The position numbers and the translations under genes are program-made. Below, piece by piece: positions 4,675-47,122 of a stretch of DNA of 64,000 bases (position 1 is its first letter; each line of letters opens with the position of its first letter). Under the pieces are notes generated by a model, which saw only the letters and a program-made list of their open reading frames with translations, did not search any database and was not told the origin of the DNA. The stretch is from assembly GCA_011033025.1 (NCBI GenBank), contig WFMF01000151.1, positions 1 through 64,000 on the forward strand, in the 5' to 3' direction. This DNA comes from Beroe forskalii (Eukaryota; Ctenophora; Nuda; Beroida; Beroidae).

Positions 4675-4928
4675 GATCTGTCGAATAGGTCCTTGTTAAA
4701 TTTTTTCCTAGCCCCAACGCCTTTTTTCTTACAAAAGGCATTGAAGAGAGTTAGCAGAGATCGTGGTTTGGAAAGGTGATTAAATAATTTATGTGTATAG
4801 CAGGTCCAGTTTTGCAATACAACTAAAGTAATTTCTAAAAAGTGCCCGGGAAATGACAGTGGTGTAAAAACCTCATTACACTGGCGTAAAAACGTCATAC
4901 AATTACAGAGTCCAAGGTCTTATCAATA

Positions 4929-12712: not shown

Positions 12713-13947
12713 GGCCTTGTTAAATTTGGGTACTTAGGTACTTACTTTCCTGTATTATAGAGTGAAATTATTACTTGATTACTGTAGGGGAATTGGAAAA
12801 TCAAATTGCAATTAAAACAAAATTGGCATAAACAATCAATACGGACATTTTTCGAGTAAACCGGGCAATACTTGTGATTTGTGGAGCGGATGGTCTGCTG
12901 AAATTTGTAACACTACGATCTCCAGTTACGTTGTTTCGATTACATGCATAGCAAACCGCTGGGTCATTTACCAGGTGAGCGTCTACATTGGACGGAATTT
13001 CCGATTGAGAAGCTGGATTGAGAAGTGTGAGCCATTATTACATTTATAAACACGCAAAATGAGCATGAAATTAAATTCTTTTACTCATTTCCGTTGATTT
13101 GATGATTTTGATCTGAGTAAATTCTGATATTCCTCTTATGTTCAAACAATGTGACTTCTGAGTAGTTTCACCCCACTGAAACATTTATGTTGAGCTTGGT
13201 AACCTCTGAATTTATTCAACTTGAGAAATAAGGACAATCAGAATGAAAGTGTGAAATCTTTAGAATAGCTCTCAAAATGTTTTGGGAGGTGCTTTTGTGC
13301 ATGAAGAAAGGATTAAGGAAGAATCGAAAAATCGGCAGTTTTAGCGACAGTTCATAAATTCACCCATAAGCCCATAACTCGTCTTATGTTGGCCAATCTG
13401 CACTTGAAGTAATGAAGTATTTCTAGATTATGAACGTTGAGTGATCAAGCCATGATGTATTGCAAGTTCTATGGGTAAACTCATACGCTGTCGCGTGTGG
13501 GAAAGAAGCAAGTTCGATCATTATGGTCTCTGAGCGCTTCTGAGCTTATCATCCTTCCGGATATGGGCCAGACACCCACTAAATTGTAAAATGAAACAAA
13601 TTCTCGCACCGAAACCGAACTTAGCTTGTAAAAGTTGAACACGGCATTTTAAAGTATATGCACTAAGCATATCTCATAACGCTACTTGGTTTTATACTGC
13701 AAATTTAATATGCGTGGCATGGTAAGTGCTAATTAGCACGTGGAGGTCGCGCGCAGCAATAAGATGCGCATATATGTGAGTTCCTTTTGACAACTCGAAT
13801 GCAGTTTGAATATTAATCTCCAGCAAATTGAGAAAATCAGTCCCCTTTGAGTAACTCCATTATTTCCTAAAGCATGGGAGACGGTTTTCTTAGGATCCTA
13901 AGAATGGTTAAGGGCCTGTGTGATTCAAGACAATACCTTATAATTAA

Positions 13948-16103: not shown

Positions 16104-16735
16104 CTGGACAGCAGAGTGATGAGTATCAACATACAATACCGGGACATGAGACCCCTTCCCGGGGAGTTTGGGATGAAAGTGTGGCCCCCTAGCATCCTAC
16201 AATTCCATCTAGCTCAGGTTATGTACTTCCATGACACATGTAACCATCTTCCAGATTTCGGGTGGTTTTGGGTTAAATTCCAATTTTCAAATTTTTAGAA
16301 CGATATCGGTTGGGTGATTTCGGAATGGTTTTGGGCCGATTTCTTCCGAAAATCTACCTGTCGAGGCACTGAAACGACCCATACTGGCTGTTTTGGGGTT
16401 ATTTTGGACGAATTCGGGTCGTTCCACAAGTCTAAGGTTACAAGGCTTTGCTTTTTGAAAATTTGTTTTGGACACCTAGTAACTATATTAAAAACTTCAA
16501 CTATAATTATTTGAAGGTTCAAAGTCGAAATTTGACCCCTTGACTTTCAGGTGAAACCCATAACTCTGGAGATATGCGATGGCGCCTTGACATCGCGTAA
16601 AGTTGACAGTGAAAAGTGGGACACTGCGGCAGTGAATCTGGTGAGGCAACTGGTCAAGGACAGGGTGGTGGTCTGCAAGGTGGAGGACATGGACCCAGTC
16701 ACGGGGGAGTACGGAGTTATGATGTGGTCACAGAA
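16104..16735 (+). CDS. TDRD12: TDRD12 homologue: N-terminal Tudor-like exons
   Basis: Exon 16104-16217 (acceptor TTTCAG, donor CAG|GTTATG) reads through DMRPLPGEFGMKVWPPSI. Exon 16551 to about 16735 opens VKPITLEICDGAL and continues EKWDTAAVNLVRQLV and VCKVEDMDPVTGEYGV. This matches the second half of the N-terminal extended Tudor domain of vertebrate TDRD12, where the same K-P-x-T-L and K-W-D-x-A-A-x pattern occurs. The right border is unclear because the 38 bp minisatellite starts inside the exon end, at the TGGTCACAG codons. Every repeat unit brings a new candidate donor (CAGCG|GTTAGT or CAGTG|GTAAGT). Exons for the first half of the domain are missing upstream. Confidence 0.7.
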
Positions 16736-19700
16736 ACATCACATGCAAAACACAGCGGTTAGTGGACACAGAAACATCACTTGCAAAACACAGTGGTTAG
16801 TGGACACAGAAACATCACATGCAAAACACAGTGGTTAGTGGACACAGAAACATCACATGCAAAACACACTGGTTAGTGGACACAGACACATAACATTCAA
16901 AACACAGCGGTTAGTGGACACAGAAACATCACATGCAAAACACAGCGGTTAGTGGACACAGAAACATCACATGCAAAACACAGCGGTTAGTGGGCACCGA
17001 AACATCACATGCAAAACACAGCGGTTAGTGGAAACAGAAACATCACATGCAAAACGCAGCGGTTAGTGGACACAGAAACATCACATGCAAAACACAGCGG
17101 TTAGTGGACACAGAAACATCACATACAAAACACAGCGGTTAGTGGACACAGAAACATCACATGCAAAACACAGTGGTTAGTGGACACAGAAACATCACAT
17201 GCAAAACACAGCGGTTAGTGGACACAGAAACATCACATGCAAAACACAGCGGTTAGTGGACACAGAAACATCACATGCAAAACACTGAGGTTAGTGGATA
17301 CAGAAACATCACATGCAAAACACAGTGGTTAGTGGACACAGAAACATCACATGCAAAACACAGTGGTTAGTGGACACAGAAACATCACATGCAAAACACA
17401 GCGGTTAGTGGACACAGAAACATCACATGCAAAACACAGCGGTTAGTGGACACAGAAACATCACATGCAAAACACAGTGGTAAGTGGACACAGAAAAATC
17501 ACATGCAAAACACAGCGGTTAGTGGACACAGAAACATCACATGCAAAACACAGCGGTTAGTGGACACAGAAAAATCACATGCAAAACACAGTGGTAAGTG
17601 GACACAGAAACATCACATTCAAAACACAGCGGTTAGTGGACACAGAAACGTCACATGCAAAACACAGTGGCTAGTGGACACAGAAACATCACTTGCAAAA
17701 AACAGTGGTTAGTGGACACAGAAACATCACATGCAAAAAACAGCGGTTAGTGAACACAGAAACATCACATGCAAAACACAGCGGTTAGTGGACACAGAAA
17801 CATCACATGCAAAACACACTGGTTAGTGGACACAGAAACATGACATTCAAAACACAGTGGTTAGTGGACACAGAAACATCACATGCAAAACACAGCGGTT
17901 AGTGGACACAGAAACATCACTTGCAAAACACTGTGGTTAGTGGACACAGAAACATCACATGCAAAACACAGCGGTTAGTGGACACAGAAACATCACATTG
18001 AGAACAAAACGGTTATACTTTCTAAGACTTTCAAATAGACACAAAACTTAAACACTTTTTGAATTTTCTATTACCTATCGTTTTCAAAACGCTCCCTCAT
18101 CAGGTAATACTTTATCATGGATGCTGCTGAAATACTAAAATTAAATTTAAAAATCAATTTGTTAAGAAATTTTGGGTTAAAAGGGGCGTTTCACTGCTAG
18201 AGGCATGGGATTGAAATGAAGTCGATGAGCCTCATTCAGACCTGAGCTGCCCATGCCCAAATAACATTCAGACCTGAGCTGCCCCGTGCCCAAGTAACAT
18301 ATGCTATATTTTACGGTGAATTTTAAGAACCAAAACGAGTTAGCTTTTGGTGACAATTATCTAAATGCCCGTGGCAGGATGGCAATTGTTGCATTGTTCA
18401 AGAAATAAGTTATGGTAATATTTTGCATATTAAGTAGGTAGGTAAGTATGATAATTATGAAGACAGCGCTTGAATGCGTGGTTATAACTACGTATCTACA
18501 TAAAGACCGAGTCAATTACTCGAATAAAGAACCCATCTGAATGACTACAATCAAAGCAATAAAATCTCGATTCAGCCATCCGGCTCCGAATTTTGAGCAC
18601 TGCTGAATAATATTATAGCTGGCTACTTTACTTGGTGACACCAATACGAAGGGCGGTAAGAGTGCAATTTTCAAGACTTCCAAATATTAAACAGCAGACG
18701 GAACACGTTTCATGAATAATGTTATCAATTCTACCGCCCTCACTCCTCAGGCACCAGCACCAGTCGTCAATGTGAACGAGGAGCTCGTGAAGAAGGAATT
18801 TGCCAGGGTAGCTGGTCCCCGGACAGACAGCGACACTCCTTCCAAGGACAGGACGGCAACCAGTTCTCCCTCACGACATTCCAGTTCTCCCTCACGACAT
18901 TATGGCGCCAATTCTCCGAGGGGCAGCTCTGGCGCCAGCTCTCCGAGGGGCAACTCTGGCGCCAGCTCTCCGAGGGGGACCTTTGGCAGGACTCCAAGTG
19001 AAAGGTCTTCGTCCGGTATCTCCACGGCTTATGTGCCAGTTGATTCCCATTATCAGAGTGGTAGGAAAAGTGGGGGAGCGAGTGGAGGGGGAGCGAGTGA
19101 AGGGGGAGCGAGTGGAGAGGGAGCGAGTGGAGGGGGAGCGAGTGGAGGGGGAATGAGTGGAGGGGGAGCGAGTGGAGGGGGAATGAGTGGAGGGGGAGCG
19201 GGTGGAGGGGGAGCGAGTGGAGGGGGAGCGAGTGGAGGGGGAATGAGTGGAGCGGGAGCGGGTGGAGGGGGAGCTGGTGGCACTCTGGACAGAGCCACTC
19301 CTGCACTCTCCTTCAATATCAAATCATTGTAAGTTTTATGATGTTTTCGGGCGAGGTTTCAGTCGTTTACTAGGCATACGCCATACAGAAATCGTTTATT
19401 CAATGTACTAATGTATACTAAATAATTAGAAAGTAGAAACCAAGTTAATCAGATATTATTCACAGTCTAAGACTTTTAATAACTTAATAGCAAAGTGTAA
19501 CTTCACTCCCGCAGTAATAAAGTTCATTACCACTCCCGCAGTAATAAAATTCGCTACCACTCCCGCAGTAATAAATTTCACTCCCGTAGTAATAAATTTC
19601 ACTCCCGCCGTAATAAATCCCACCTCCGCAGTAATAAAGTTCACTCCTGCAGTAATAAATTTCACTCCCGCAGTAATAAATTTCACTCCCACAGTAATAA

Positions 19701-22700
19701 ATTACACTCCCGCAGTAATAAATCTTACTCCCGCAGTAATAAATCTCACCGCCGCAGTAATAAAGTTCACTCCCGCAGTAATAAATCTCACTCCCGCAGT
19801 AATAAAGTTCACTCCCGCAGTAATAAATCTCACTCCCGCAGTAATAAATCTCACTCCCACAGTAATAAATTCCACTCCCGCAGTAATAAAGTTAACTCCC
19901 GCAGTAATAAATCTCACCTCCGCAGTAAAAAGTTTCACAACCCGCAGTAATAAAGTTTACTCCCGCAGTAATGAATTACACTCCCGCAGTAATAAAGTTT
20001 ACTCCCACAGTAATAAAGTTTACTCCCACAGTAAGCGCTCGACGCCCCGCCGCCCGCTTATCCTGGGTTGTGAGGATATCCGTCCCGTGTACAGCATTCA
20101 GGACTGCTACTTCGCCCCCAAGATAGAGCAGCAGTACATCAAAGGACGGGGAGTGTCGCACACTGACCTCAGTGTGATCCAGAAGTACGGCTGGCCTTTC
20201 TTCAGGAAAGGTAAGTATAAAGTGGAAATAATGAAAAGGAAAGGTAACTCGAAATACGTTTGTTAAATTAGGTGGTCAGTTGGTGTATTGGTATCTAGTC
20301 AGTCTCGTGATCGAAAAGATCCCGGGTTCAATTCCCCGCCATTCCCACTGACCCACTGAGCTACGGGTGAAAGAAAGGTTAGTCGAAATAAATTATACTG
20401 GCGTAGAATTAGGTATAGTATTTTCTATCTGACATTGGTAATATGAACTTATGAAATATCAGATACAACCATCTGATTGGTCCCAGTACCCAGTCGAGTA
20501 TAGGTACTACTAAACGGGTGACGGATCTCCCGCTACAGGTGGTCCTAGTCCCCCAAATTAGTAGGTTCAGATTAGTAAAGAATAGCGTTTTTAATGTTCA
20601 AATCGCATGACTGTAAATATGACCGATTGAATTTCTCCAGTCAACTGATGTATGGTTTATGATAGAGTTTGATTTGAATTTGGCAGACTCTAAATCCAAA
20701 TCAGCAAATCGTTGCTATTTTCGCAGGTCGGGACGGTGTCCTTGTGTTCCACCCTGACAACACTCTGCGTCCCGAGCTGACCTTCCTCATCCTCTGCTAT
20801 CCGTCCTCATCAAGGGAACATACGCCAGATTCCCCAAGAACTACTCTGTATGTATAATGGATAAAATCTGGTTATTTTACAACTCACCTACGGAGAGTTA
20901 CCAGTCGATTAACGGTCGCATTCAATCAGATAAGCACTGTATTGTATTGTTGTATTATATTTGAGGCAATGATTGGAGCAATGATTCATTATTGTTTCCA
21001 TTATGAATGAATGGAAATTGAATTCCAATATGTGATCATTATATGCTTGTGAGTTTGTTTACAAAGCTTAATTAATTAATAACGATAAATCTGACATCAA
21101 TTTAGTAATAATATTATGAAACTGTTTGATAACCGCTCATTTCCTGGGGTAGCCGAAAGTTCTGATAGTGGTCCCATCCTGTAAAGATGCTGATCTCCTC
21201 ACCCGATACTGTAAAGAATCGCTAGATGAATCCCTCAAGTATGCTCTAAAGTAAGTGCAAGCTTCAGACTTTCAACTTCATCGGTATTATACACACTGAC
21301 ACCAATTCACACTGACACCAATTCACACTGACATCACTTTACACTGACACTAGTTCACCTTAGCATCAGTTCACCTTAGCCCCTCGCACCAGTTCACATT
21401 GACACCAGTTCACATTGACATAATTACACCTTGACACCAGTTCACCTTGACACATCATACCAGTCTATCTTGACACCAGTAAAAATTGAGACCAGTTCAC
21501 CTGGATACAGTTCACCTTGACACCAGTTCACAAGTGCACCAGTTGATTTTGACATCAGTTCACAATGACACCAGTTTACATTGACACCAGTTCACCTTGA
21601 CACCATATCCCGCACATATCTAGCCCAAACCCCCCTCTTGGCAGCGTTCACAAAGCGTACGCCATCTCCAAGTTCGCGCCGCACGCCGAACTTTACAACA
21701 ATCAGGACCTCCTGGTCATCACCCCTCAGAGCCTCATTGACTCCTACAAGGAACACGTGCCCGCGGATGGCAGGTTCAATTGACTTTCAAAAGCTTCTTA
21801 TATCAATTTATTAAACTTTTTCAGAAGCTTCTTATATCAATTTATTAAACTTCCTCGTATCATTAAGAACTAAACTCCTCCATGACTGCGTGTAAGAATG
21901 AATATTTAAATTTGAGTCATAATTCACTACCTTGATCCTAAAGAGTTATTTTCTACTGCTTATTAAGAGCTGTTGAAGATCCATCAGTTTTTACTTTAAT
22001 CTATATGATCGTGAAGCCACTATTAATTATTTTGCATGTTTCTGAACGGTGTCCTCTTCATTTCAGGAGCATTTACTTCAGTAACACATGCCATTTGATA
22101 CTTCACAAGTCACACGAGCTCTTTACTCGGCACCGAACCCAGATGCAGTTCATCCTCAACCTCCTGAGGGATGAGGTCGACGAACAGGTCGGAGATATGT
22201 GCATGTTGTTTGTTTTTATGACAGGTTAAAGGCTATTGATTGAGTTTCACAGACTTTAGATTGTGCACAGACTTTAGATTGTGCATAGGTGATTTAAACA
22301 TGTTTTATGAGCTCAACTACATCTTGACATAGTAAAAGCCACAGATCGGAGCATTATCGTGAATGATTAAAGTTATCTCTAATCCATCATTTCATCTACT
22401 CTCCAAGTCTGCTTTTGAGTAGGGCGACGTTTAGCTATTTAGAATTGCACTTTTTAATTGCACTTAAACAAGCCTTAGATTATCTGAGCTCACCCTACGT
22501 TTTCCCAGGACTACAAACAAAGTGTCAGATAGTCCTGATATCGGAGACTTGGTTGCCGATTTACCACGCAGTAGCCCGTACCTTCATGTCAGACCCCGTT
22601 ACTATCATTCAGAATAGGACTGAGAGTGCCCTGCATAGCGGTGTAGTTACGGTACGTTTACACTCACTTGAATTCCTCCTTATTACTCTCTTATTTTCAC

Positions 22701-25700
22701 CCAATGTTTGCGCCCATAACGCTTTAAGCTTTTTAGAGTCCTCTGTTTTTAGAATTAACATTTCCATTGTAACTGGCAAAATATTCAGCACGTTGAAGAA
22801 TACCAGAGCTCAGACTTGAAGTTGAATTCCTTCGTGGAGACAGTGGAAAAGCTGTGTAAGAGGAACAAGAAAATAGCTGTATTTGTGAGGGAATGCGGAA
22901 GGCAGCTGGTTGAAGCACTGTCAAGCAAAGCGATCCCTAGTTACCAGCTAGATGAGTCCGGAGTGCAGATCCAGCACTTGTCGAAAGGAAGTGCAATGGG
23001 TAAGTTGTGTTTTTGTCGTTCAGCGGTAGGTTTTACTTTAGAGGAAAATTTGATTTTGGCTCACCACAATGTCACACTGCCAAAGGTCATCTCTAGTTGT
23101 GTTTGCGTAGGGCGCGGAACGTATTTACCGAATATGAATCACGCGATGTCTTTTTGTATGAGCTGTAGAATTCAGTCAGCTCTCTGATTTTCATAAATAT
23201 ATGCTGCAAACTTGACAGGCAAACTCAATAATTACCAAAAAGTTTGGTAGCAGCGTTTACCCGAATTTGTGATCTTGCCTCTTGGGAAAAGCTTTCAATC
23301 CTCAAGTCCACAGGTCCACTCATGTGGAGAAGGCAGAACGGAGTTGAAATCAACTGAAGGGCGAATCCAATGTCTTATCTATTAATAGAGGTGTATGGGT
23401 ATACTACAAACATAACAAAATACTGAATATCGATTTCCTAATTCAAAGATTGACATAAGAGGCGGAAGAGACTAAACTGTGAATCATCAGCGGTTACCCT
23501 ACAGTTGTAAGGTCTCCCTGCCATCTGCGATGTAGGTGTACCATCAGCAGGTGACAAGGGAAACGGAGGGGTTTCGGCCCACGTTTCCCTCACAGCTTAC
23601 AACTGCAAGGCTGGGCCACCCAGGACTCCGGATTCCTGAGCAACACAGTTTAGAGGGAGGGGGAGGAAAAGGAAAGAGTTCAGTAGAGGCAAAAGATCAA
23701 TGAGTGTTAAAATCGGGCTCTTTTTTCTTATAACTCATGTTGATCTAAATCTTGGCTATATTGTCTCCCATTACAATAGCAATGGCCTGCGGTACCCTCA
23801 GCTTCGATTCCTTGTCTAACTATGTTCGGGATAGTTCAAGACTGCCGATTGCTGAAAGTACGGGAGTAAAGGTAGCGCAAAATACCGGGTGGTCCAAAAA
23901 GAACGTTACAAAGTTAGCGCGCTGTAACTTTGGTTGTGTTTGGAGTTTCTCAATGAAACTTTGGTATGTCATAGGTATGTACGATACAATTTTGCACCAA
24001 AAATTTGAAATGTCTACCTCCGAAAATGTCCGAGTTATCAACGAAAAACCGGTTTATTTGCCATATCTCAGCTTCTGAGGGTCAAAAATGTTAGCTACTC
24101 TAGGATCATATTGCCCACATATCGCCCGAAATATCCTGAAAGTTTCATCAAGATTGCTCAAAAAACCTTGGAGATATGCGCCTTTTTGTTTCGCAAAAAA
24201 GTGTGTATACGCAAGCTTTTACACACTCTGCAGATGAAATGTAAACAAACACTGTGCTTATCTCCCTATTTGGACATGTAAAACTATGCAAGCTTGCATA
24301 ATGTACCCTTTAATTGTGCTTTAAGTACACTTTTTGCGATACAAAAAGGCGCATATCTCCGAGGTTTTTTGAGCAATTTTGATGAAACTTTCAGGATATT
24401 ACGGGCAATATGTGGGCAATATGACCCTGGAGTAGCTAACATTTTTGACCCTCAGAAGCTGAGGTATGGCAAATAAACCGGTTTTTCGTTGATAACTCGG
24501 ACATTTTTTGAGGTAGACATTTCAAATTTTCGGTGCAAAATTGTATCGTACATACCTATGACATACCAAAGTTTCATTGAGAAACTCCAAACACAACCAA
24601 AGTTACAGCGCGCTAACTTTGTAACGTTCTTTTTGGACCACCCGGTATAATCTGGGATTACAATGATAACTTGTTCGAGTGCCAAAAGGCCAAAGTTCTG
24701 ATGAGCCAGCCATCTTCTCGGCCGGCTCATCAGTTGGTCAGCTAGCCGGTTGTCCGGGTGGCGAGCCGTCGTTGTCGGGATAGTTCAAGAGTGCCCATTT
24801 CATTATTTCTGATTCACTTTCAGTTCATGCAGAACGACAATCTAATAATTTAAAAAGTAAACACTCACTAGTTACTTGCAAATTTGAAAAAACGCCAAAT
24901 GACAATATTCCATTCAATACTAAGAAATTAAGAAAACAGTGAATTTTGTAACTATGGAGCCTAGACCGAAAAGCTCTAGGTTGACAATTCAGTTCTTTAC
25001 ATGGAAAATTGAATGAATGCCTGCCTAAACCGCGAAAAGCACACATAACTTCATTGCAACAGCTTTTTGCCAATGAATATCTCTGTCCCAGCTTCATCGA
25101 GAAGCTTTCCTCGTCTCTGGCTCGATTACTTGAATCCTTCGGTTCCTGTCGTTGACCACGTGGCTGTTGAAAGAGAAGTAAAACCTTCCAAATAAAAGTA
25201 GTGTATCTTGTAGACGTGGTTAGCTCGACGACCTCCCTTTCCCCCAGCTTTGCAGGCATTGGACGGCCCGTACACTTTGTAGGTGTCTTGTGCATCTGGG
25301 GCACTGCCACACCAACCACCCCCTTGCAAGGCAAACACTTGGTACCCGTAGGAGGTGGCAGCCTGCAGACACTTCTCATAGGCATCTGTCCGAGACAGGA
25401 AGGAGTCTCTGAGAAGAGAGTGAGTTCCTTCAATGGGCTGTATGGCTTTATTGATGGTATCGCGCCAACAGCCGAGGTCTTCAACTTCAATGTATGGGTC
25501 TTCATCTTCTGATGACTTTATCCGGTACACTTGGTTTGCCAACATACCTCCATTTCCAGTAGCCTGACATGCAGTAGAACTTCCGTACTTTTTGTAAGTG
25601 TCTTGTGCATCTGAGGAACTTGCACAAGAACCTCCATCTTGCAAAGCAAACACTTTGTATCCATAAGAGTTTGCTGCTTGCAAACATTTGTCATAAAGGC

Positions 25701-37700: not shown

Positions 37701-40700
37701 TACAGGGCAGAGGTACGGCGGACATGGCACGACAAGTACCATGTTTACTTTGTGGACTACGGAAACGAGGACGAAGCTGTGCCGTCAAACTACGTCAAAA
37801 CCATACCACCCCACTTCCTTCAGGTTAGTTGGTTGCCATGGTAACATACCACCCCCCCCCCTTCCTTCAGGTTTGTTCAACTGGCATGAATTTGTTGAAT
37901 AGCGCTCAAGAATGGGCGCAGAAGTCGCTACTCGCTATGTTACAGGGGCAGTTCGAACTGTACTCAAGTGTGCGCGGCTTGAGTTTGTATGGCGTATAGA
38001 AGTATAGACATGTGAATAGCCTGTCTCTATGCCGCGCAAACTTAAGCCGCGCAAACTGCAGTTCGAACTGTCACCGTATAATTCCTATGTTCTTGTTTCA
38101 GCTGCCGTTCCAAGCCGTGTACTGCACCCTGTCTGGCATTGAGCCAATTAGTGACGAGTGGAGTGCCACAGATCAGAGACTCATGACGGAGCTGTCAGAA
38201 GAAGAGGACTTCTTCTGTGACGTCTTATCTTACTCAGGTTAGTAGTAGTTGATGTTAATTGGACAATCAATTAACTTTTAAGTAATTATCAGTGAATTCA
38301 TCCATAGTTAGCGACTTATTTTGTTGAGTTATCATACACTAAGTTCGAATCAAGGAATCATTGAAAAGCGTTCAATGTTCATTTTGAATCAAATCGAAAC
38401 ATTGGTTGAACAATGAAGGCTGGCTGTTGTAGAAAAATATAAAAATGTTGTAAAATATTAAGATGACATCATCAAAATAAACAATCTTCTATGCACCAAT
38501 TCTACAAAAACTTCACTAAAGTTACATATTCCATACCAATCATGTTCAGAATTGCTTTTAGAAATACAACATTCATTTTGGCAGGTAAGAAAAAATTCAA
38601 ACAAAAAAGTGTTTCATAGTTTCATTTATGGCCTTTATACTTTTATAATGTATATTTCTAACTTAGCATAGATCTACGAATACTGAGTATGAAAATCAAA
38701 TATCATGAATCACCGAGCGATGAGTCACTTGCTCACTTGTTAATAAAAGCGTTCCATCTGATTTATTGGGCTTGAACGCGCCCCATTGTTACCAATGAAA
38801 CGTTACGGAAACTTGATGACGAATCAGCTCCCAAGCTGTGACGTGTCTCCAGCAGCTGCTAACACTTCTGTCGACGTCTTGATGTACCTTCTCGTTCCTG
38901 TTCCGCTTTAGCTTTCCAATACCAGACGGAACCAAGGAAGCATGAAATGTCACGAAGCTAGGATTTGCGGAATCTTGTTTTGCCTTTTAGAGCTGTTCAG
39001 ATCGGTCAGGATGATATCTAAGTTGAATCAATTGTTTGCTGGCAAAGCATGTCTACGATGAGACCTCTGGGTTCCATGCAAACCTAACTACACAGACCCT
39101 ACCTCTCACATCTACCCTGAACCTAAAGGACGTGGTTTGGAAACAACATTCTCAATAGTATCAGCTCATAAGTTTGTATCTAGATTAGCTAGATCTAAAT
39201 AAAATAAAAAGTCTGGAAAAGTAAGGAAGCGATCACTCACCGCCCCTGAGACCCTGGAAATTGGAGGAATTTTCAATTTACCTGGGGTGGCCTCGTTCTT
39301 CTCCGTACAAACGTAGATCTCCACGAAGCACAGACTTTCTGTTGTCTTTTCGTTACTTACTATCACCGAAACACCTGTCAGAGATATAAGCGATAATTGA
39401 TATCGACGGGGTATTAGTTTACCCACAGGTCCATTTGACATTGGCCGAGTTGACTGCAAACTCGTTCGCTGATTGATAAACGTCTTGACGATTTCGTACT
39501 CCTATGGGTAAGCTAATATGCCACCTAGTAAAGTACCTACGTTTGCGTTATCAGCAAATCTTGTAACAACTCTCATTTAGGCAGCATATAGTAGCTTGCC
39601 ATCTTGAAATTATCTTTGCATATACCATTAGACCAATCAGCGAACAATTTGAAGGTCAACTCGCACGCTGATTGGTCAATGTCAAAGGGACCTATGAATA
39701 AGCTACAACGCCCTCCCTAGACTTCCCCTATGCTTGATTCTATGCGTCCATTTCATGTCCAAGCAGCTATTGGGTCAAATGTTGGTATGCCTACAAAGTG
39801 TGTTTCTCAACACAACCCCAGATTCTCCATGAAAGTAAGAAACAGGAATTCACGAGATCTGACCTTCCCTGTGTTCGCACGATCTCACGTACGTTTCCTC
39901 CTTCAAAGTGAACTTAACCCTCGGTGCGATGGGGTCCCCACAGACATTTTGGTTGCCAGCCATAGTATAGAGACTCACTGTAGTATCTTGGATCCTGGGG
40001 AATTCAGGTTTATAATATGGTGTGGGACAAAGATTTCCCAAATAATCCGATATTTTAAATTTTAATCATGCCAATTCATAATTGGGAAATTATGTTTAAC
40101 CTACAATGCTGAATGTGACGTCATTACCATAGCTCAAATGGATTAATTGTTGAGCTGCATAGTTCTCACGCACGATGATTTGCCTCATACCTGAGGGAAC
40201 ACATTGCGCATTCTGCCACGGTGTAGTCAATGAATGAGTTGACAATAACGACATCTCCTACTTTCACTGAAGTACCTCCAAGAAGATCTATCCTCACATA
40301 CGGTGGTATAAAATCTCCTGGCTCCAGCTGAAGTGTCAAAGTGTTATCAAAGAGTCAAAGCCCCTTGGGGATTTCGCCTGAATTATCATAGGGATCACAC
40401 TGTTGTTGATAACGCCCTGGCAAGGACAGATCTATATATACTATATCAATCGGCCATAATATACAGTATTACTGCATGCAATTTCTAAATTTTAACTTAA
40501 AAAAGGTAATTCTTACCACTTGATACGTGTAAGGGTTGTTGTCTATGAGATATTCGTACCCTGGGTCTGCAATGCTCGTCTGTACATAGGAGCCACAACC
40601 TGGAAAATGGTTCTTCCCGCTTCATGGAAAAAACAATAACATGACTGGGCAACTTATTTAGTATCGGGATAACCGTATGTAAACCGGTGCTAGATTGTAC

Positions 40701-43700
40701 ATCATCTGATCAGGAATTAGGGTGGCTATTATGGGAATTAATAGTTCTTCCATCGACGTTCGCATCTATTTGGATGGAATTTCAAAGTAGTCTACGATAT
40801 TGCGATAATACGATAAGTCAAGCGAAATAATAGCATACTGTGGTATTTCCGGACGTCCACGACTTTGCAGGGCACGATCTCCGCGATGAGCATGATAATC
40901 ATTCCCGCTTCGTAGGAGTTTTCCTGTGTCACACGGATTTTGTTTCCTGAGGGGTATGACAGTAAACTTTTCCTTCCTATGATTCTAGCTTAAATGCGAA
41001 AAATCGTGTCACATTTGGTTGGATACCGTTGGAAATTGCCTATAAGATAACAATGACATGACGTTAATTAGGAGTAAAACGAAGTTATGCTAAAAGTTTT
41101 GAAAGTGTGATGGAGCCCCACCGTATCTCCCGTCACACTGGACTGTATAAGTCCGTTTTTCAGTGTCTATAGCTTCTATAAATCCACAAGTTCCCCCATT
41201 ATTGCCTCTGATCACCTCAACTTTGGCTCCGTGCAACCTGCAAGGCATTCAGTTTGATTTGATAGAGGACCACCAAAACCTTCGCTTCGAAATATTGAAA
41301 AAATATCCATATTCCCGATCCCCCAAAATTTGGATCTTCAGAATTATTGTCCCTTATAAATATGTTAGGTATGATTATAAAATATAAAGTGAAGTTTGGC
41401 AGTGTTTTACGGTGTTGTGTCGAACCCCACGTGCGCAGCGTTTTTAAGCGCAGCGTAATCATGCGCGGCGCAATCAAGTGCGGCTCACTGACTGTTATTT
41501 ATGGCAAGCAGTGAGCCGCGCATGATTACGCTGCGCATGAAAAAGCCGCGCACGTAGGAGTTCGCCACGACCCCTTACCGTTGCCAGCAGTGAGGACAGT
41601 CCTCGATCTCAGCGTCAATAATAACCACGGAATCAATGTAATTGTTTTCACTGATTTCAATCTGTATCCACACCTGTTGCTGTAGAGGGAAGGGATGTTT
41701 TTAGCTGTAGTAATAAACGGCATATTTTTTATCTTATTCGGACCGTCTAAATTAGACGCTCCAAAGAATACGAAGATATGCCGTTGCTTAAAAAATCAAT
41801 AAGATATCACGAAAAATTGCAAAGTTTTCACGGAGTTCGCTCCTGCTATCTGAATCTCCTTGTAGCGACATGTATCACTGCATGGGAGCTTCACATAATA
41901 CCATTTCTCAGACCCCCCCCCCCCCTTTCCAGCCACTGTCAGGTATCAGCATTTAGAAACCCCCCTCCCCCACCCTCGGTTGCTGACGTAATATTTGTGG
42001 CAGTTCCTTGTCCAACTTTATTATTCTCTTACCGCACTGAGTGGCGACTCCGCCAATGCATATGTCTGTCTGTCCAAATCGAAGGTATTGCCACCTGTAA
42101 AGTCCACTATGCGTTGTGCTTCAATTTCACCACCTACAAAACCAACAGTGTCGCACCCTGAAATAAGTGCATTTTTAGGAACCTGTATAAATTTCTTTGT
42201 CCTGGCAGCAAATGACAAACCTCATTCTACCATCAATTTTATCTTTTGTTTCATAATTTGTTGAATCAGATGATTTTGTTCGTCGGCAAATCATGAAGAG
42301 TTCATGGTTTGCCCTTAGTGTCCGTTATATGATTCGAATGAGGAAGGAAGGAAGGATTCAGGAAATGCTATTTCATTGCTACTTGATTCTTGTTTAAGTT
42401 GTATCAACATTTTCTCGGGATATAGGTTTTATGTGGTATACATACCTTCTTGAAGCCATGGGTCTTCTGAAGTCCGTACTGGAACTACCCCCATAACAAG
42501 AAGAAAGATAGATGTCAACATCTGCTAATAATAGTGAATTAGAGTACCTTAGTAGATTACAAGAATAGAAAAATAACAAAAAATAAACTGTGGTACAACT
42601 GTATTGTTACACAAGTCTATTCTTAACTGGAAAATTTGCATAGCTGTAAAAACGATACAAAATATACCATTTAAATCGGAGTCAAAACTCAAAAGTGTTT
42701 CGGATGTATCTTAATGAAAATGAGAGATTTATTTTATTCTTTTTTGACAAAAATACGATGTGGTTCTTTTTACTGACACTTGTAAAAAGAACCACATCGC
42801 ATTTATGTTTACCTGTACCGCTGAGTCGTAAGAAAATAGACTTACAAATATCACATTGAAATCTTACGAATCTTATTCAACAACCCGATCCGTGAAATCA
42901 TTAATTATGCATAGTTGTGTGCAGATCGCTCGATTGATAGAGGAATAGATAAAGAAACGCAAATTTACTGTTTGCCCGTTAGATTCTAACAAAAGTTTAG
43001 CAAAATTGCGCGTCTTCTTTAATCTGTTCATCAATCAAACGATCTGCGCCCAATTGCGTACAATTCAAGCTCTATATCTGTGATCACACTTCAGAAAGTG
43101 ACAACAAATAGTGACAACAATTAACTTCAGAAAGTGACAACAAGTACACAGTGGAGATGGCGTATGACGATACGATGCCGCTGATTGACATCCTGTGCAG
43201 AAGTCACGTGGGACTGGACACTGGACACGTTAACAACAGCGCTTTCTCGGATCTGTTCAACAAGGTTTGGAAGGTGGTGGAAGGACGATTTATAGGAAAC
43301 ATCTAGAGTGTTCCTATCATGAAGCATTTCATTTCGTTTTTTGTGCTCAGGTATTTTCTATCAGCTCTGATTATTCCTTGACCTTTTCATTCTATCTTGA
43401 TAGATTTTCAAACCATCTAGTCCATCTAATAACCCCTTTCACCACCCTACAGCTGTACCGCAGTGATGACGACTATGTGGTCCTCTGCGCGGCTGAGTCC
43501 TTAGGAAGTGGACCTGAAGGCGGGTGATAAGGGCGTGATCCCTGGTGATCTAGCAACAGTGTGCAGGCTGTGTAAGCTGAGGTATGAGGATGAGAGTGTC
43601 ATGGTCCACCTCATCTCATCCCTTAACCTGGTGCTGAAGATGCAAGGAGAGAAGGAGAAGGAGGAGTGGGTGAGTGAGTTGATAGAGGAGGAGGTGCTGG

Positions 43701-46700
43701 TTAGTCTCATCAAGAAACTCACTTCTCCCTCACCTACTCACAGAGCTACTGCAGATCTCATCGCTACAGTCGGAGCTAAACCAAGTAATTACTTTATTAT
43801 GCTTATCATTAGGAGTTATATCTCCACTTATCTGATACCTAATCTACTATAAGTGATCTGATCTGACATCTGAGTATATATTTTGAAGATTTTAAGGAAG
43901 CCTGTTTATCGCCGAGCAATTAGAAGAGTTTATTGACTGATGTTCGTGATTCTGTGTTTGAAATCAGGAATTTGTATTGAAGTTTAACTTTTCTTAGGAA
44001 AATTTGAAAGGTGATATCTTAAATTTCAAACCTCCCCAGAGATCCTGGACATGCTGGCTGGTACCCAGTGTATCGTGTCACTGTGTGAGTTGTGTGTGTA
44101 CAAGCAACCAGAGTCTGACAAACTGCTGTCTGTTCTCCGAGCAATCAGAACCCTTGTTACTGTCAAATACGATGTTTCTAACGGAGATATCCTGGGCTCC
44201 TACCACATCCGCAAAGAAATCAAAAGCACAGGTGGGTGTCATGGAGTTAGTTGGAGACTAGATTTTATAAAATCTAGCCCATCCATATGTATCAAAAAGT
44301 CAAAGACATTTGTATTTGTGTTTCTTTGCGTCTACACCTCTAAATTCCCTAGCAACCACAACCTCGTTCTAGAACCTCTTAAATTGTACGTCCTTCGCAG
44401 GACATTCTAAATAAGTAAACTTGGTCGTAAAATTCACTAGCAACGACAACCTCTTGCGCATGACACCTCTAAAGCATCAATTCCCTAGTAACCACCACCT
44501 CTTGCGCAGGACATCTCTTAATATCCCTAGCAACCACGACTTCTTTTGCAGGACATCTCCGAACTCTGATGAAGTTCCTGCGTGAAGCGTCTGACGAGTG
44601 TCTGGAACAGATCCTGATTCTGTTTGATAGCATGTTCATGGCTGAAGGGAAGAAACAGGACATGTTCCGGTTTTTCAAGGAAGAGGGAGGGCTGAAGGAC
44701 GTGTGTCGGGCTACTAAACGATGCAACTCTCCGGCTGTCATCGGGATTGTGAAGCTGTTCGGAACGCAATGCAAGGAGGTTCATACTAGTATTCTGATTG
44801 CTGGTAGCGAGAATTAGTCAATTTGACATTGTCAATGAAAATAAAACTCAATATCTATTTCCATTGCCTTAAATATGGAGATAATGGATTTTACCTTTCT
44901 TATGTTATTCTGTATTCAGTCCACTTTTTTCAAACGATCTTAACTCTTACACTTACAGTCTCTTACGTTGATGAAGAAAGAAGGCCTGACTGAGTGGTTC
45001 AAAGAACTCAAGAATAAACGCAGAGACTTTAGTACCAACTTGGCTTGTGAACAATACTACAAAATACTATCATCTCACAAGGTGAGATTAGTAAATTTGA
45101 GCTGTTCAATTTCTGATTGGGGTTTATCGATTTTACCGTTTGGAAGATTTAAAGACCTTTTCCAAAGTCCCTTTCCTGATACTGACTGCAGGCCAGACTT
45201 GAACTTTAAAATTAAACGAAGTCAAACACAGCATTCAAAGAATGGAGGTTTTTTATAAGTCTTAATCAACTCGAACCTATTCAAGCTAGCACATAGTCAT
45301 TATTACTTTCAGGCGTCTATCATCTATGATAGATAATGATGCTCGATTGTTATCCGAAAAATGCTGTCAAGGCAAAAGAATATGGCAAATTTATATTTTA
45401 CTGATCCAACATCAATTTTCAAAGAAGTCTAAAGGCTCAACCATCAAAATATTAAGTCCATATGCGATATCCATGAAGAGCGAATAGTGAATTATAAACA
45501 CAGTGGCCGAAAAACACTGATCAGGCCTCATTTGAATACAAAGGCCAAAACGTTTACCGAAATTTAGCTTTTATGATATGGCAGGAGAGTTTTTTAGAAG
45601 AATAATGATAGATGCTTGTGAGTTGGCGTCGTCTCCATTCTTAAGAACCGCCTTTTGCCATGATCGACCTATGCCTGGGTGCTATTTTATAGCAATTTGA
45701 CAATTTGTCGATTTAATATCTCACATTCCTCAATCCTCAGGTGTTGGAGGAGAAGGAGGAAGGAGAGAATCAGGATCAGATCCCTGTACCAATGACCAGA
45801 GCCCCCATACTTACTCCCATAGACCAGCCTGTTCAGATGAAAGAGGGAAATATCCTAGACAACTTCGTGGTAGGGTTATTATTCTTCTTATCTCTTTATC
45901 TAAACCTACTATCACTGGTTTCTGGTTTCTGATACTGGTTGTTAGGGAAATATCCTACCCGTGGTAGTGCTAAACCAGTGGAAAAACAACATTTTTCCCA
46001 GAAAGAGCCAAGTATACTCTGGTACCAGAGAAAGCGCTCGGTTGCCCTCAGTATTCAACTCAAAGATGTGGGAAAACACGAGTTAAAAGTAGAAGAAAGC
46101 AGGATTCTTGTGTTTTCTTCATGGCACTCAGGATACCTTTACCGCTTCAGGTTCATTGAGATCAGTTTATTAATGCTAGCGTCCCTGCTGTGAACTTAGA
46201 CTTCTGGAAATACTCGTAGAGTACCCTACCATTGAAGCGTTGGGGAATCATGAAACTAGGAAGCCCCATGTACAATAACCCTACCAAGCTATTCAAAGGC
46301 CGCGTTTTGGCAAGATTGATTTCACAACGCCTTAACGCAACAACAAAAAAAGCGCCAATAATTCTGACAGTCTTCAGTAGGCTGTAGCAAACTAACATAT
46401 CACCAACTCCAGCGCTCCAGCCAAATGTCTTCTGTCTCCCCCTTGAAACCACCCCACACTTCCCAGGTATACCCTGTTTGATGCGGTGAGTAAGATGACA
46501 TCCCAAGTCAAGAGCTCTGAACTCCTGGTGATCCTGACCAAACAGACCCCGTCAGCCCGGTGGAGCACTCTGTTCGATCAGAAGCGGGGTAATGTGAAGC
46601 TGGACTTCTCACGAGCTTGTGATTCTGAGGATGAGACAGATAGTGAGGAGGAGGAGGAGGAGGTGAAGAGGGAACCCCTTCCTTCTGGAGATCATGTGAG

Positions 46701-47122
46701 TATAATCTTCAAACATGGCATCATTGGGTTTTGGGGGTGAGCACTGAGCAGGGATGTGGGCTGTGAAGATTTGCTATCTTCTCTCTGAAGTTAAGTTGCG
46801 GAGAACGAGTATATTGATAGAGACGTTGTGCCATTGGCCTTTGCGCGATGAAAAACCCAAGGATACGTTTTGTCGTTTTATGGTAGGGTAGGAGCCGGGC
46901 TTCAAGCCTTGGATATCGTAATCTGTAATCAATCCGTGAACCACACTGAGTCCTGTTACCCTTTAACCTGTCCCGCATATCCAGGTGTGTATCGGAGATG
47001 ACGACTCCTCCTCAGACGGGTATGTAGATGAGGATGAGGAGATTGGGGACGACTTCTCCAGCTCAGTCTTCAGCCAGATGAAAGTTAATGTGGACTCTGA
47101 TGACATGGACGGTCTCGAGTAG
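16104..47122 (+). CDS. TDRD12: TDRD12 (Yb-like) homologue: whole gene span, about 29 exons
   Basis: One + strand gene of about 31 kb is assembled from GT-AG exons whose phases agree at most junctions. The order is an N-terminal Tudor-like half, a Ser/Arg and Gly-rich linker, a DEAD-type helicase core, the helicase C lobe, a CCCH finger, an extended Tudor region, an ARM-like block, a CS domain and an acidic tail. TDRD12-family proteins act with PIWI proteins and other Tudor proteins in germ-line granules in secondary piRNA production. A role in transposon silencing is inferred from the family. Nucleotide-binding motifs are degenerate (see helicase block). Three introns contain minus-strand genes. 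A poly(A) signal AATAAA lies at 47,433. The 5' end is not found. The family is firmly supported by domain order plus the CS tail motif. Uncertain points are the exon borders near 16.7-18.7 kb, 22.2-22.5 kb and 45.87-45.95 kb. Confidence 0.8.
16733..17998. repeat. 38 bp minisatellite, about 33 copies, over an exon-intron border
   Basis: The unit is CAGAAACATCACATGCAAAA followed by CACAGCGGTTAGTGGACA. Copies are mostly 90-100% alike and the unit is 38 bp, so it is not a multiple of three. The array starts within the last codons of the exon that begins at 16551 and ends at 17,998. Long open frames through it are repeat translations. No spacers are present, so it is not CRISPR-like. Confidence 0.9.
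17999..18694. other. TDRD12: Remaining intron before the SR/Gly-rich exon
   Basis: AT-rich intron with a short direct repeat (CATTCAGACCTGAGCTGCC at 18,234 and 18,268). No coding exon or mobile element recognised. Confidence 0.5.
18695..19328 (+). CDS. TDRD12: TDRD12 homologue: Ser/Arg/Pro and Gly-rich linker exon
   Basis: Acceptor AAACAG and strong donor TCATT|GTAAGT. The translation contains NVNEELVKKEFARVAG, then SP/SPR repeats (SPSRHSSSPSRH and three NSPRG-type units), then about 14 copies of a five-residue Gly-rich unit of GGGAS or GGGMS type encoded by a 15 bp repeat (about 19,072-19,275), and ends SFNIKS. It is low complexity and probably disordered. The SP sites could be phosphorylated (inference). 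The unit length of 15 bp keeps the frame, unlike the intronic arrays on both sides. The antisense frames here are shadows. Confidence 0.7.
19500..20031. repeat. 21 bp minisatellite made of a 3' splice site, about 25 copies
   Basis: The unit is CACTCCCGCAGTAATAAATTT with small variants. Each contains a pyrimidine-rich tract and CAG, then TAATAA. The final unit, ACTCCCACAG at 20,022-20,031, is the real acceptor of the next exon (exon starts T-AAG-CGC at 20,032). The array fills most of the intron 19,329-20,031. Confidence 0.9.
20032..22999 (+). CDS. TDRD12: TDRD12 homologue: degenerate DEAD-box helicase core (lobe 1 and start of lobe 2)
   Basis: Exons: 20032-20210 (VYSIQDCYFAPKIEQQYIKG, Q-motif region), 20727-20847, 21153-21250 (PKVLIVVPSCKDADLLTRYC, motif Ia region), 21645-21773 (LLVITPQSLIDSY, motif Ib/GG region), 22067-22187, about 22509-22651 (IVLISETWLPIYH) and 22807-22999 (KKIAVFVRECGRQLVEAL, motif IV region). 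The Walker A place reads GRDGVLVFHPDNTLRPELTF with no GKT. The DEAD place reads HLILHKSHELF, and SAT is SET. ATP hydrolysis is therefore unlikely, an inference. One base is missing near 20,790: with it the frame continues as VLIKGTYARFPKNYS to a perfect donor at 20,847. The junction 22187/22509 is not phase-clean, and an acceptor at AAAG|TGT near 22,522 would restore it. Confidence 0.75.
20268..20345 (+). repeat. tRNA-derived SINE fragment
   Basis: The piece has an A-box-like TGGTGTATTGG stretch and a good B box (GGTTCAATTCC) within GATCCCGGGTTCAATTCCCC. The 5' and 3' ends do not pair into an acceptor stem, so it is not a functional tRNA gene. It lies in an intron of the TDRD12 homologue, and its 3' tail and borders are unclear. 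Confidence 0.5.
21285..21610. repeat. Intronic tandem repeat, about 16-18 bp (TTGACACCAGTTCACC)
   Basis: About 18 imperfect copies of a GACACCAGTTCAC-type unit fill most of the intron between the exons ending at 21,250 and starting at 21,645. Small open frames are repeat translations. Confidence 0.75.
23388..23657. repeat. Dispersed repeat, copy 2
   Basis: Same family as 4,929-5,215, with shared blocks in the same order and scattered indels. It lies inside the large intron 23,000-30,546. Confidence 0.6.
23885..24645. mobile_element. Foldback element with TA target duplication, Tc1/mariner-like ends
   Basis: The ends CCGGGTGGTCCAAAAAGAAC and the complement are the tips of two inverted arms of about 320 bp each, separated by a central stretch of about 130 bp. 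The dinucleotide TA flanks both sides (23,883 and 24,646). The arms are nearly identical, which suggests a recent insertion or ongoing gene conversion. Both arms carry the same open frame in opposite directions without transposase motifs, so the element is non-autonomous. Confidence 0.8.
25126..28179 (-). CDS. Secreted F5/8-like + Sushi + six WSC-like modules, nested in a TDRD12 intron
   Basis: Three minus-strand exons: 28125-28179 (signal peptide MCHRIVLLLYLAALSTQK), 27420-27815 (a discoidin/fucolectin-like domain with GGLTASMKNRYHG, NLVDG and IYNRMDCCRDRI), and 25126-27282. Phase-1 junctions agree. The last exon starts with a Sushi-like domain (DCEVQIPHSN through LHCSRYGILV to LPSC). Six copies of a module of about 105 residues follow, with pattern LGCW-x-D, RAI-x-x-LE, Y-x-x-R, KC-x-x-AA-x-SYGY, VFALQ-x-GG, Y-x-x-YG-x-S-x-C and N-x-VY-x-I. 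Module starts are at about 27,041, 26,726, 26,412, 26,097, 25,782 and 25,465, mostly 315 bp apart. Module 2 lacks one base (near 26,573) and module 5 has two extra bases (near 25,697), so the assembled exon is split over three frames. WSC-like is a resemblance only. Probably a carbohydrate-binding extracellular protein. Confidence 0.75.
27900..28390. repeat. Duplicated 5' region of the nested secreted gene, copy 1
   Basis: The block with the signal-peptide exon and upstream sequence (for example GGTCGCATGAAGATTTTGTT at 28,308) recurs at 29,850-30,235. The two copies flank the galectin exon, so the promoter plus first exon was duplicated. Confidence 0.75.
28868..29392 (-). CDS. Galectin-domain exon, nested in a TDRD12 intron
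   Basis: A single 525 bp minus-strand exon with acceptor CGCCAG and donor CACG|GTGAGT is phase 1 at both ends. It contains a galectin-like carbohydrate-recognition fold: DIIYHLDFRVQ (place of the H-x-N-P-R motif), ILQNSKQDGEW (place of V-x-N and W), PDTYKVTFNGAPLPEEF and TYVRLGIRNIGS. The sugar-binding H, N and W are kept, while the N-P-R and E-R positions are changed, so ligand binding may differ. An N-terminal stretch with KCVLSSSDPEDVYYSC precedes the fold. By phase it can follow the decayed signal exon at 29,950 and could continue into the F5/8-like exon at 27,815, giving one longer mosaic protein. Otherwise it is a separate gene with unknown ends. Confidence 0.65.
29850..30235 (-). pseudogene. 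Duplicated signal-peptide exon lacking its start codon
   Basis: This is copy 2 of the 27,900-28,390 block. The exon equivalent to 28125-28179 begins at 29,950 and still reads HRIVLLLYSAVLSTQQ with an intact GTATTG donor. A 14 bp deletion between two CAT trinucleotides removed the ATG. An in-frame TGA lies upstream, so this exon cannot start translation as assembled. Confidence 0.6.
30547..31515 (+). CDS. TDRD12: TDRD12 homologue: helicase C lobe and CCCH zinc finger
   Basis: Exons 30547-30683, 31024-31158 and 31348-31515. The first reads VPDCDVVLNYDLPNSLTAF, the helicase motif V/VI region with the Y-D-L-P typical of DEAD proteins. The second has CLSLFFISEEEDAQGV and LVKYLSRYTAHIP, as in TDRD12. 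The third contains CPYLLQYGVCSLRTCPQRH, a C-x8-C-x4-C-x3-H finger, then RVLDIPLRGKIQ. The first exon joins exon 22807-22999 across a 7.5 kb intron in phase 1, which contains the galectin/WSC locus on the other strand. Order and spacing agree with vertebrate TDRD12. Confidence 0.8.
32157..32404. repeat. 35 bp minisatellite at the 3' end of the Ly6/uPAR gene, about 7 copies
   Basis: The unit is GGCGCACTCCGTCCACTTCA followed by CGCCATGTAGAAAGC. The copy next to the gene supplies its last codons and the stop (read from minus: TTC-TAC-ATG-GCG-TGA), so every other unit carries an identical potential terminus in the 3' flank. Confidence 0.9.
32386..33701 (-). CDS. GPI-anchored protein with two Ly6/uPAR (LU) domains, nested in a TDRD12 intron
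   Basis: Four minus-strand exons, 33588-33701, 33214-33310, 32815-32956 and 32386-32575, join with matching phases to 180 codons plus stop. The signal peptide MKFLMVLSALLGATYS is followed by LU domain 1 (SCHTDST, GCGDCTFGNRNCVDC, AENCN) and LU domain 2 (YRCYEW, TCHIGADANSDEKIC, GCGPCL, NCLECVGDMCN). Each ends in the hallmark C-N. The C terminus, GSTALSASFLLAALLTAFYM, is a typical GPI-attachment signal. LU proteins are cell-surface adhesion, complement-control or receptor-modulating proteins, and the ligand here is unknown. The acceptor part of exon 2 is partly duplicated (33,284-33,345 and 33,357-33,410). The host is the TDRD12 intron 31,516-35,615. Confidence 0.8.
33440..33545. mobile_element. 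Short foldback element (GCGCGGC family)
   Basis: The GCGCGGCTCACAG and CAGTGAGTCGCGCG inverted arms and the flank AAAAGCCGCGCACGTGGGAG match the element at 41,418. It lies just 3' of exon 1 of the Ly6/uPAR gene, in its intron. Confidence 0.45.
34085..34170. repeat. Short tandem repeat, about 15-16 bp (ATGGATACCAAGTACC)
   Basis: Five to six near-identical units. Overlapping open frames on the minus strand are repeat translations. Confidence 0.8.
34259..34501. mobile_element. Foldback MITE, about 240 bp
   Basis: Left arm GACTTGTTTACATTGCTACC pairs with right arm GGTAGCAATGTAAACAAGTC. The outer parts also pair (ACATTAGCTTGAAAATAGT with ACTATTTTCCAGCT). No clear target duplication was determined. 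The rest of 34,500-35,600 is AT-rich intron without a recognised gene. Confidence 0.6.
35616..38237 (+). CDS. TDRD12: TDRD12 homologue: extended Tudor region
   Basis: Exons 35616 to about 35805, 35972-36059, 36264-36563, 36665-36770, 36995-37170, 37354-37464, 37697-37823 and 38102-38237. The first opens VKITAVSDGNRFFGRILS, a Tudor strand pattern right after the CCCH exon as in TDRD12. Exon 36264 encodes EEGLYPLETVYRFPARL and LIVCGVKP. The canonical Tudor core is in exon 37697: WYRAEV, YHVYFVDYGNEDEAV and IPPHFLQLP, keeping the aromatic-cage and D-Y-G-N residues that bind symmetrically dimethylated arginine of PIWI proteins. Function by family: PIWI or partner docking. Exon 38102-38237 ends in phase 1 and joins the exon starting at 43,152. 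Confidence 0.8.
37941..38077. mobile_element. Short foldback element (GCGCGGC family)
   Basis: The arm GGCAGTTCGAACTG pairs with GCAGTTCGAACTG, and the inner parts carry TGCGCGGCTT and AAGCCGCGCA. It sits in the 278 bp intron 37,824-38,101 and ends only about 25 bp before the acceptor. Confidence 0.55.
38238..39281. other. Intron sequence 3' of the nested F5/8-like gene
   Basis: AT-rich intron with no supported exon of the TDRD12 homologue. The minus-strand 3' end of the nested gene probably lies in 39,166-39,281. A short CpG-richer patch at 38,780-38,960 has a minus-strand open frame but no motif I recognise. Confidence 0.4.
39282..42521 (-). CDS. Secreted protein with two F5/8-like domains, nested in a TDRD12 intron
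   Basis: Nine minus-strand exons join with consistent phases: 42446-42521, 42033-42157, 41579-41679, 41122-41237, 40839-40946, 40517-40599, 40191-40327, 39864-39994 and 39282-39374. The signal peptide MLTSIFLLVMGVVPVRTS comes first. Domain 1 reads QQVWIQIEISENNYIDSVVI, CWQRLHGAKVEVIRG and QCDGRYGNKIRV. Domain 2 repeats the layout with PPYVRIDLLGGTSVKVG, TMAGNQNVCGDP and SVIVSNEKTTESLCFVEIYV. This is the jelly-roll pattern of fucolectin/coagulation F5/8-type domains: W-x-x-I-x-I, a mid Cys pair, a terminal I-x-E-I strand. It is probably a secreted lectin or adhesion protein, about 325-345 residues. The C-terminal end is unclear: either the exon reads on to a stop at 39,166, or it is spliced. 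The host is the TDRD12 intron 38,238-43,151. Confidence 0.7.
41418..41575. mobile_element. Foldback element (GCGCGGC family)
   Basis: The arm GTAATCATGCGCGGC pairs with GCCGCGCATGATTAC, and the ends TCGAACCCCACGTGCGC and GCGCACGTAGGAGTTCGCC are also inverted. It lies directly next to the donor of exon 3 of the nested F5/8-like gene (exon starts 41,579). Confidence 0.6.
42756..42799. other. Perfect 18 bp inverted repeat with 8-base loop
   Basis: CGATGTGGTTCTTTTTAC (42,756-42,773), loop TGACACTT, then GTAAAAAGAACCACATCG (42,782-42,799). The transcript of either strand would form an uninterrupted hairpin. It lies upstream of the nested F5/8-like gene and inside the TDRD12 intron. It could be a promoter element, a MITE remnant or a small-RNA hairpin. 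Confidence 0.6.
43152..45081 (+). CDS. TDRD12: TDRD12 homologue: ARM-like helical block
   Basis: Exons 43152-43264, 43453-43784, 44040-44231, 44552-44778 and 44959-45081. Amphipathic helices repeat throughout: MPLIDILCRSHVGL, DLATVCRLCKLRYEDESV, MVHLISSLNLVLKMQ, EEEVLVSLIKKLTS, AGTQCIVSLCELCVYKQ, LRTLMKFLREASDECLEQIL, FFKEEGGLKDVCRATKRC and TEWFKELKNKRRDF. The pattern of 40-odd residue helical pairs resembles armadillo/HEAT repeats. The phase join from 38,237 (G|TG) and the downstream CS domain place it inside the TDRD12 homologue. One base is in excess near 43,503-43,508: the frame LYRSDDDYVVLCAAES must shift to reach VDLKAGDKGVIPGDL. From memory vertebrate TDRD12 has no such block here, so it may be lineage-specific or from a fused neighbour. 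Confidence 0.65.
45741..47122 (+). CDS. TDRD12: TDRD12 homologue: CS (p23-like) domain and acidic tail
   Basis: Exons 45741-45869 (EEKEEGENQDQIPVPMTR, linker), about 45946-46150, 46467-46695 and 46985-47122 (stop TAG). The CS domain reads EPSILWYQRKRSVALSIQ, LKDVGKHELKVEESRIL and VFSSWHSGYLYRF, then YTLFDAVSKM, SSELLVILTKQTPSARWSTL and NVKLDFSRACDSEDE. The last block corresponds to the vertebrate TDRD12 CS tail, where the same V-I-L-x-K and W-x-x-L-x order is followed by an acidic run. CS domains commonly contact HSP90. The exon starting near 45,946 is in the CS frame only if its acceptor is shifted or a base is lost, and both intron borders share the direct repeat GGGAAATATCCTA. The tail is Asp/Glu-rich (DSEEEEEEV, GYVDEDEEIGDD). 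Confidence 0.75.

Follow-up and report, generated by a model that had tools for sequence, protein, structure and literature searches.

Minus-strand genes nested within the three largest introns of a probable TDRD12-type gene of Beroe forskalii

The window analysed, comprising the first 64 kb of one contig (C194) of the Beroe forskalii draft assembly (216 Mb, 1,134 contigs), contains a plus-strand host gene model of 30 exons at positions 16104-47122, which join into a single frame of 1,707 codons with the stop at 47122. All host introns are of the GT-AG type (29/29) with a median length of 293 bp, and the three introns that carry minus-strand genes are the three largest of the host (7547, 4893 and 4100 bp), the fourth largest being 2035 bp. 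The host gene is composed of the following features.

16104-16217, 16551-16715, 18751-19328, 20032-20210 and 20727-20851, plus strand: host exons 1-5, placed by phases and splice sites
21153-21250, 21645-21773, 22067-22187, 22523-22651 and 22789-22999, plus strand: host exons 6-10, placed by phases and splice sites
16104-22999, plus strand: content of exons 1-10, i.e. pre-helicase region, Ser/Gly-rich linker, helicase domain 1 and the first part of helicase domain 2
23000-30546, plus strand: host intron 1, 7547 bp, largest of the 29, phase 1, with nested genes
30547-30683, 31024-31158 and 31348-31515, plus strand: host exons 11-13, remainder of helicase domain 2, a CCCH-like stretch (by inspection) and start of the next Tudor-like region
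31516-35615, plus strand: host intron 2, 4100 bp, phase 0, with a nested Ly6-like gene
35616-38237, plus strand: host exons 14-21, Tudor-like region (under the Pfam cut-off, E=0.084) plus a clear Tudor domain (Pfam TUDOR, E=5.7e-27)
38238-43130, plus strand: host intron 3, 4893 bp, phase 1, with a nested F5/8-type gene
43131-47122, plus strand: host exons 22-30, end of the Tudor region, region of ca. 274 amino acids, CS domain, acidic tail and stop

Host exon boundaries were picked by eye from splice sites together with the reading frame. The flanking exons join in phase over all three gene-bearing introns (phases 1, 0 and 1), as the preliminary description had stated, and this agreement is not independent support, because the boundaries were set with the frame in view. 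The open-frame product for the host (ca. 10^-40, uncorrected for frame-guided exon picking) was for the same reason given no weight. For intron 3, an acceptor ending at 43151, the one given in the preliminary description, is likewise in phase (read by eye), host exon 9 has a weak acceptor, and a short coding-like stretch between exons 22 and 23 runs into a stop and was left within the intron. No 5' start was found among the open frames upstream of 16104, which is an internal acceptor. Within a host intron, at 16724-17998, a 38-bp unit is repeated in tandem ca. 34 times, starting near the exon-2 donor. Scans for tRNAs and Rfam families gave no hits.

The host probably encodes a TDRD12-type protein with a degenerate DEAD-box helicase, of which the ATPase motifs seem to be lost, Tudor regions and a CS domain. 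TDRD12 proteins are composed of a Tudor domain, helicase, CCCH-like stretch, second Tudor domain and CS domain, and the helicase-like, Tudor and CS parts of the host follow in the same order. In searches of the spliced host against solved structures, the DEAD-box-type helicase region was aligned with Dbp2 over residues 18-412 (E=3e-5), and the Pfam DEAD match (E=0.0011) was under the curated cut-off. Within 20032-22651, the host residues aligned with the GKT and DEAD motifs of Dbp2 are unrelated to them (HKSH for DEAD). C-terminal to the helicase, the clear Tudor domain matched in the structure search the extended-Tudor proteins Tudor, TDRD1 and TDRKH, and N-terminal to it no TUDOR match was obtained at contig positions 1-37685, with the gene start lying outside the model. 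The C-terminal CS domain matched 2kmw (E=4.6e-6), which we take to be a p23-like CS protein, and the SGT1 homologue 1rl1 (E=0.0052), with a Pfam CS match (E=0.0062) under the curated cut-off. Between Tudor and CS, the host differs from TDRD12 in its region of ca. 274 amino acids, which is not known from the human protein and is helix-rich by inspection; it returned no match in the PDB search and sub-threshold Pfam matches only. A segment taken to be human TDRD12 was aligned to the host with an E-value of 9e-25 and 26% identity. We infer that the gene is orthologous to TDRD12 and would function in the piRNA pathway.

Of the host joins over the gene-bearing introns, that at intron 1 falls in helicase domain 2 near residue 332. 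The best-matching stretch crosses this join in 24 of the 25 listed chains (E-values up to 1, many being near-identical eIF4A entries); the eIF4A-III alignment is ungapped there, and that of Dbp2 has a 2-residue insertion one residue off the join. At intron 3, the join sits where the Tudor fold is almost complete, and the match to TDRD1 (5m9n, E=3e-15) reaches ca. 18 residues beyond it. Only three of the 43 rows cross this join, two of them by only ca. 4 residues, when the other 40 stop short, and the Tudor match thus gives moderate support for continuity over intron 3. At intron 2, phase and splice sites fit, a PDB search with the CCCH-Tudor region returned no match, and the alignment with the presumed human TDRD12 segment is ungapped, which may be taken as a lead only.

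That the helicase, Tudor and CS parts belong to separate genes, with the minus-strand genes being intergenic, is highly unlikely. Some open frames do extend beyond the host exons, the intron-2 join is without an independent fold test, and the TDRD12 architecture used as comparison is a presumed one. However, the helicase match spans intron 1, the Tudor match continues across intron 3, the phases fit at all three introns, and the presumed human segment shows no gap at the join over intron 2. Exceedingly unlikely is also that the assembly has joined unrelated contigs: the assembly is a draft in 1,134 pieces, and breaks in the reading frame of the WSC array in intron 1 (see below) could be sequence errors, but the 64-kb window has no N, the host exons are collinear on either side of each nested gene, and domain matches span introns 1 and 3. 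A second copy or alternative haplotype of the host was not seen with a 409-amino-acid host query, for which all genome-wide matches (7/7) were plus-strand hits at the host locus itself. The preliminary description, in which antisense genes are nested in a host resembling TDRD12, is supported. The minus-strand features are the following.

25126-28179, minus strand: N1b in intron 1, with a signal-peptide-like exon (28179-28125), F5/8-type exon (27815-27420) and Sushi-like plus WSC-repeat exon (from 27282)
28866-29389, minus strand: galectin-like exon in intron 1 (Pfam Gal-bind_lectin, E=3.7e-5), ends read by eye, probably a neighbouring gene of its own or a remnant
32386-33701, minus strand: N2 in intron 2, intact 4-exon ORF of 180 amino acids with consistent phases and splice sites
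39237-42521, minus strand: N3 in intron 3, intact 10-exon ORF of 328 amino acids with signal peptide, one F5/8-type domain and a further region that Pfam does not match

The coding exons of N1b, N2, N3 and the galectin exon all lie within introns 1, 2 and 3, and their overlap with host coding exons is 0 bp (UTRs outside the model).

In intron 1, the minus-strand location of the previously described coding sequence was verified, when its reading as one galectin/F5-8/Sushi/WSC gene was not. The galectin match scores 23.6 bits, above its cut-off of 22.1, the F5/8-type exon of N1b is recognised by Pfam with an E-value of 1.5e-8, and the Sushi label is by inspection only, without a Pfam match. The WSC array consists of 314-bp units and is open only across three different frames, i.e. 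with two frame breaks, so that this WSC copy is either a broken pseudogene or mis-sequenced. A duplicated block of ca. 300 bp (81% identity, within 27990-30300) carries the first exon of N1b, and its other copy, apparently without ATG, lies upstream of the galectin exon. With an F5/8-Sushi-WSC query, 88 of the 97 matches were found off the host contig, many of them to WSC only, and the nearest F5/8 relatives were grouped on contigs C366 and C263; for the galectin query, 30 of the 31 matches were elsewhere, the nearest on C913 and C703.

Co-occurrence of the paralogous parts was searched by tblastn in a subset of 11 matching loci (L055-L058 and L015-L021, with a further look at L055-L060), of which L015-L021 are only ca. 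3.4 kb each, which limits the test. These loci comprised 11 F5/8 places, five of which had a Sushi-like match close by, and none of the 11 loci had F5/8 together with a galectin or WSC match; in L057 and L058, the galectin places were without F5/8 match. Against splitting the gene counts contig C399, with one F5/8 and one WSC match on the same strand ca. 8 kb apart. A single galectin-F5/8-Sushi-WSC gene is disfavoured, since paralogues of its parts were apart in the stretches examined. The separate galectin and F5/8 paralogues and the first-exon block upstream of each favour two adjacent units, with the galectin exon probably separate from the neighbouring F5/8-WSC gene.

The Ly6/uPAR gene proposed for intron 2 was confirmed as an intact minus-strand gene (N2), with a signal peptide and a hydrophobic C-terminus resembling a GPI signal (by inspection); its putative Ly6/uPAR character is a reading of the cysteine pattern (three-finger type) by inspection only, and Pfam returned no Ly6 match. 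The draft N2 query produced 31 matches in the genome, four on the host contig and 27 on others, including a cluster on contig C503. In two stretches of this contig, the parts of N2 were identified in the same exon order and in separate pieces, which speaks against retroposition.

For intron 3, where a double F5/8-like protein had been described, one F5/8-type domain was confirmed in N3 (Pfam F5_F8_type_C_2, E=2.8e-7), and the second was not. Elsewhere in the genome, N3 had one weak match only (E=0.0016), at an F5/8 place on contig C263. N2 and N3 have several introns each; both reading frames are complete and have splice sites of their own, which suggests independent transcription units.

Outside the host, to its left, a local duplication at 3399-4695 and 11361-12733 consists of two similar pairs of short minus-strand ORFs of secreted type, and two of these ORFs had no match in Pfam. 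On the other side, a neighbouring plus-strand ORF (53132-54895) had a match for double-stranded RNA binding that is weak and under the cut-off (E=0.011).

Very probably, the locus is a single TDRD12-type host gene whose three largest introns carry ordinary nested genes on the minus strand. Duplicated genes for secreted or surface proteins would have inserted into the host introns and then come to be expressed independently. The genes in introns 1 and 2, having paralogues on other contigs, look like DNA-level duplicates, most likely derived from families elsewhere in the genome, and for the gene in intron 3 insertion is assumed only. The previously offered option that the genes simply inserted fits best, considering these paralogues and the Ly6-like exon order shared by the two stretches. 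Each nested gene would be driven by a promoter of its own, with independent splicing and translation, and the host spliceosome would remove it together with the intron. We infer both the independent transcription and the inserted origin of the nested genes.

The antisense layout could instead be regulatory, with nested transcription pairing or interfering with the host pre-mRNA and thereby linking the expression of surface proteins to a piRNA gene. This is very unlikely. All nested genes seen are antisense to the host, and opposite-strand nesting in Drosophila has been tied to transcriptional interference (PMC8467205). However, three out of three antisense genes would be expected by chance with a probability of ca. 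0.30, given an opposite-strand share of two-thirds among nested genes (our arithmetic; fraction from PMC4394429), the coding exons overlap by 0 bp, and ca. 610 bp separate the closest nested coding end from a host exon (UTRs outside the model). The overlapping transcripts and dsRNA suggested in the preliminary description gained no support. Pairing would depend on long UTRs or on host pre-mRNA that is still unspliced, and pairing of mature messages through coding exons is ruled out. In intron 1, the host also carries the longest inverted repeat found in the three introns.

23882-24648, no strand assigned: fold-back repeat in host intron 1, with 318-nt arms of 97% complementarity, member of a high-copy family

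This family is common in the genome (744 first-look candidates, of which 40 were scored), and the fold-back would form dsRNA in the host pre-mRNA independently of the nested genes. That the host pre-mRNA, including the 318-nt fold-back, and the nested transcripts together give rise to nuclear dsRNA, with the piRNA-pathway gene feeding small-RNA control over the nested surface-recognition genes, is extremely improbable.

The human gene OMG, to which the nested genes may be compared, encodes a GPI-anchored protein. The two members of a nested pair mostly have opposite orientations, and duplication into introns is a frequent source of internal genes (PMC8467205); the opposite-strand share is put at ca. 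two-thirds (PMC4394429), and intronic genes account for ca. 6% of Drosophila genes (PMC3786989). According to PMC7692384 and PMC4394429, human NF1 holds three coding genes, OMG (a glycoprotein), EVI2A and EVI2B, on the opposite strand within one intron. The locus resembles NF1 in having one host with coding genes within introns, all on the opposite strand, and differs in its TDRD12-like host and in having genes in three introns, when in NF1 a single intron of a RAS regulator is involved. Likewise, the Drosophila coding gene 2mit lies within an intron of tim2 (timeless2), a large host, and runs in the opposite direction (PMC3786989), but it is a single nested gene. The earlier statement that no described case of this combination was known holds for the exact gene set only, and not in general, as human NF1 hosts three antisense coding genes. 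No paper on genes nested in TDRD12, and none on TDRD12 with the CS domain, was found among open-licence papers, which is weak evidence.

The locus is a new example of a known nested-gene arrangement, and it requires no new principle. If the nested genes are expressed, a single probable germline gene would here host several genes unrelated to one another in a compact space, and the locus would be useful for testing whether nesting constrains expression.
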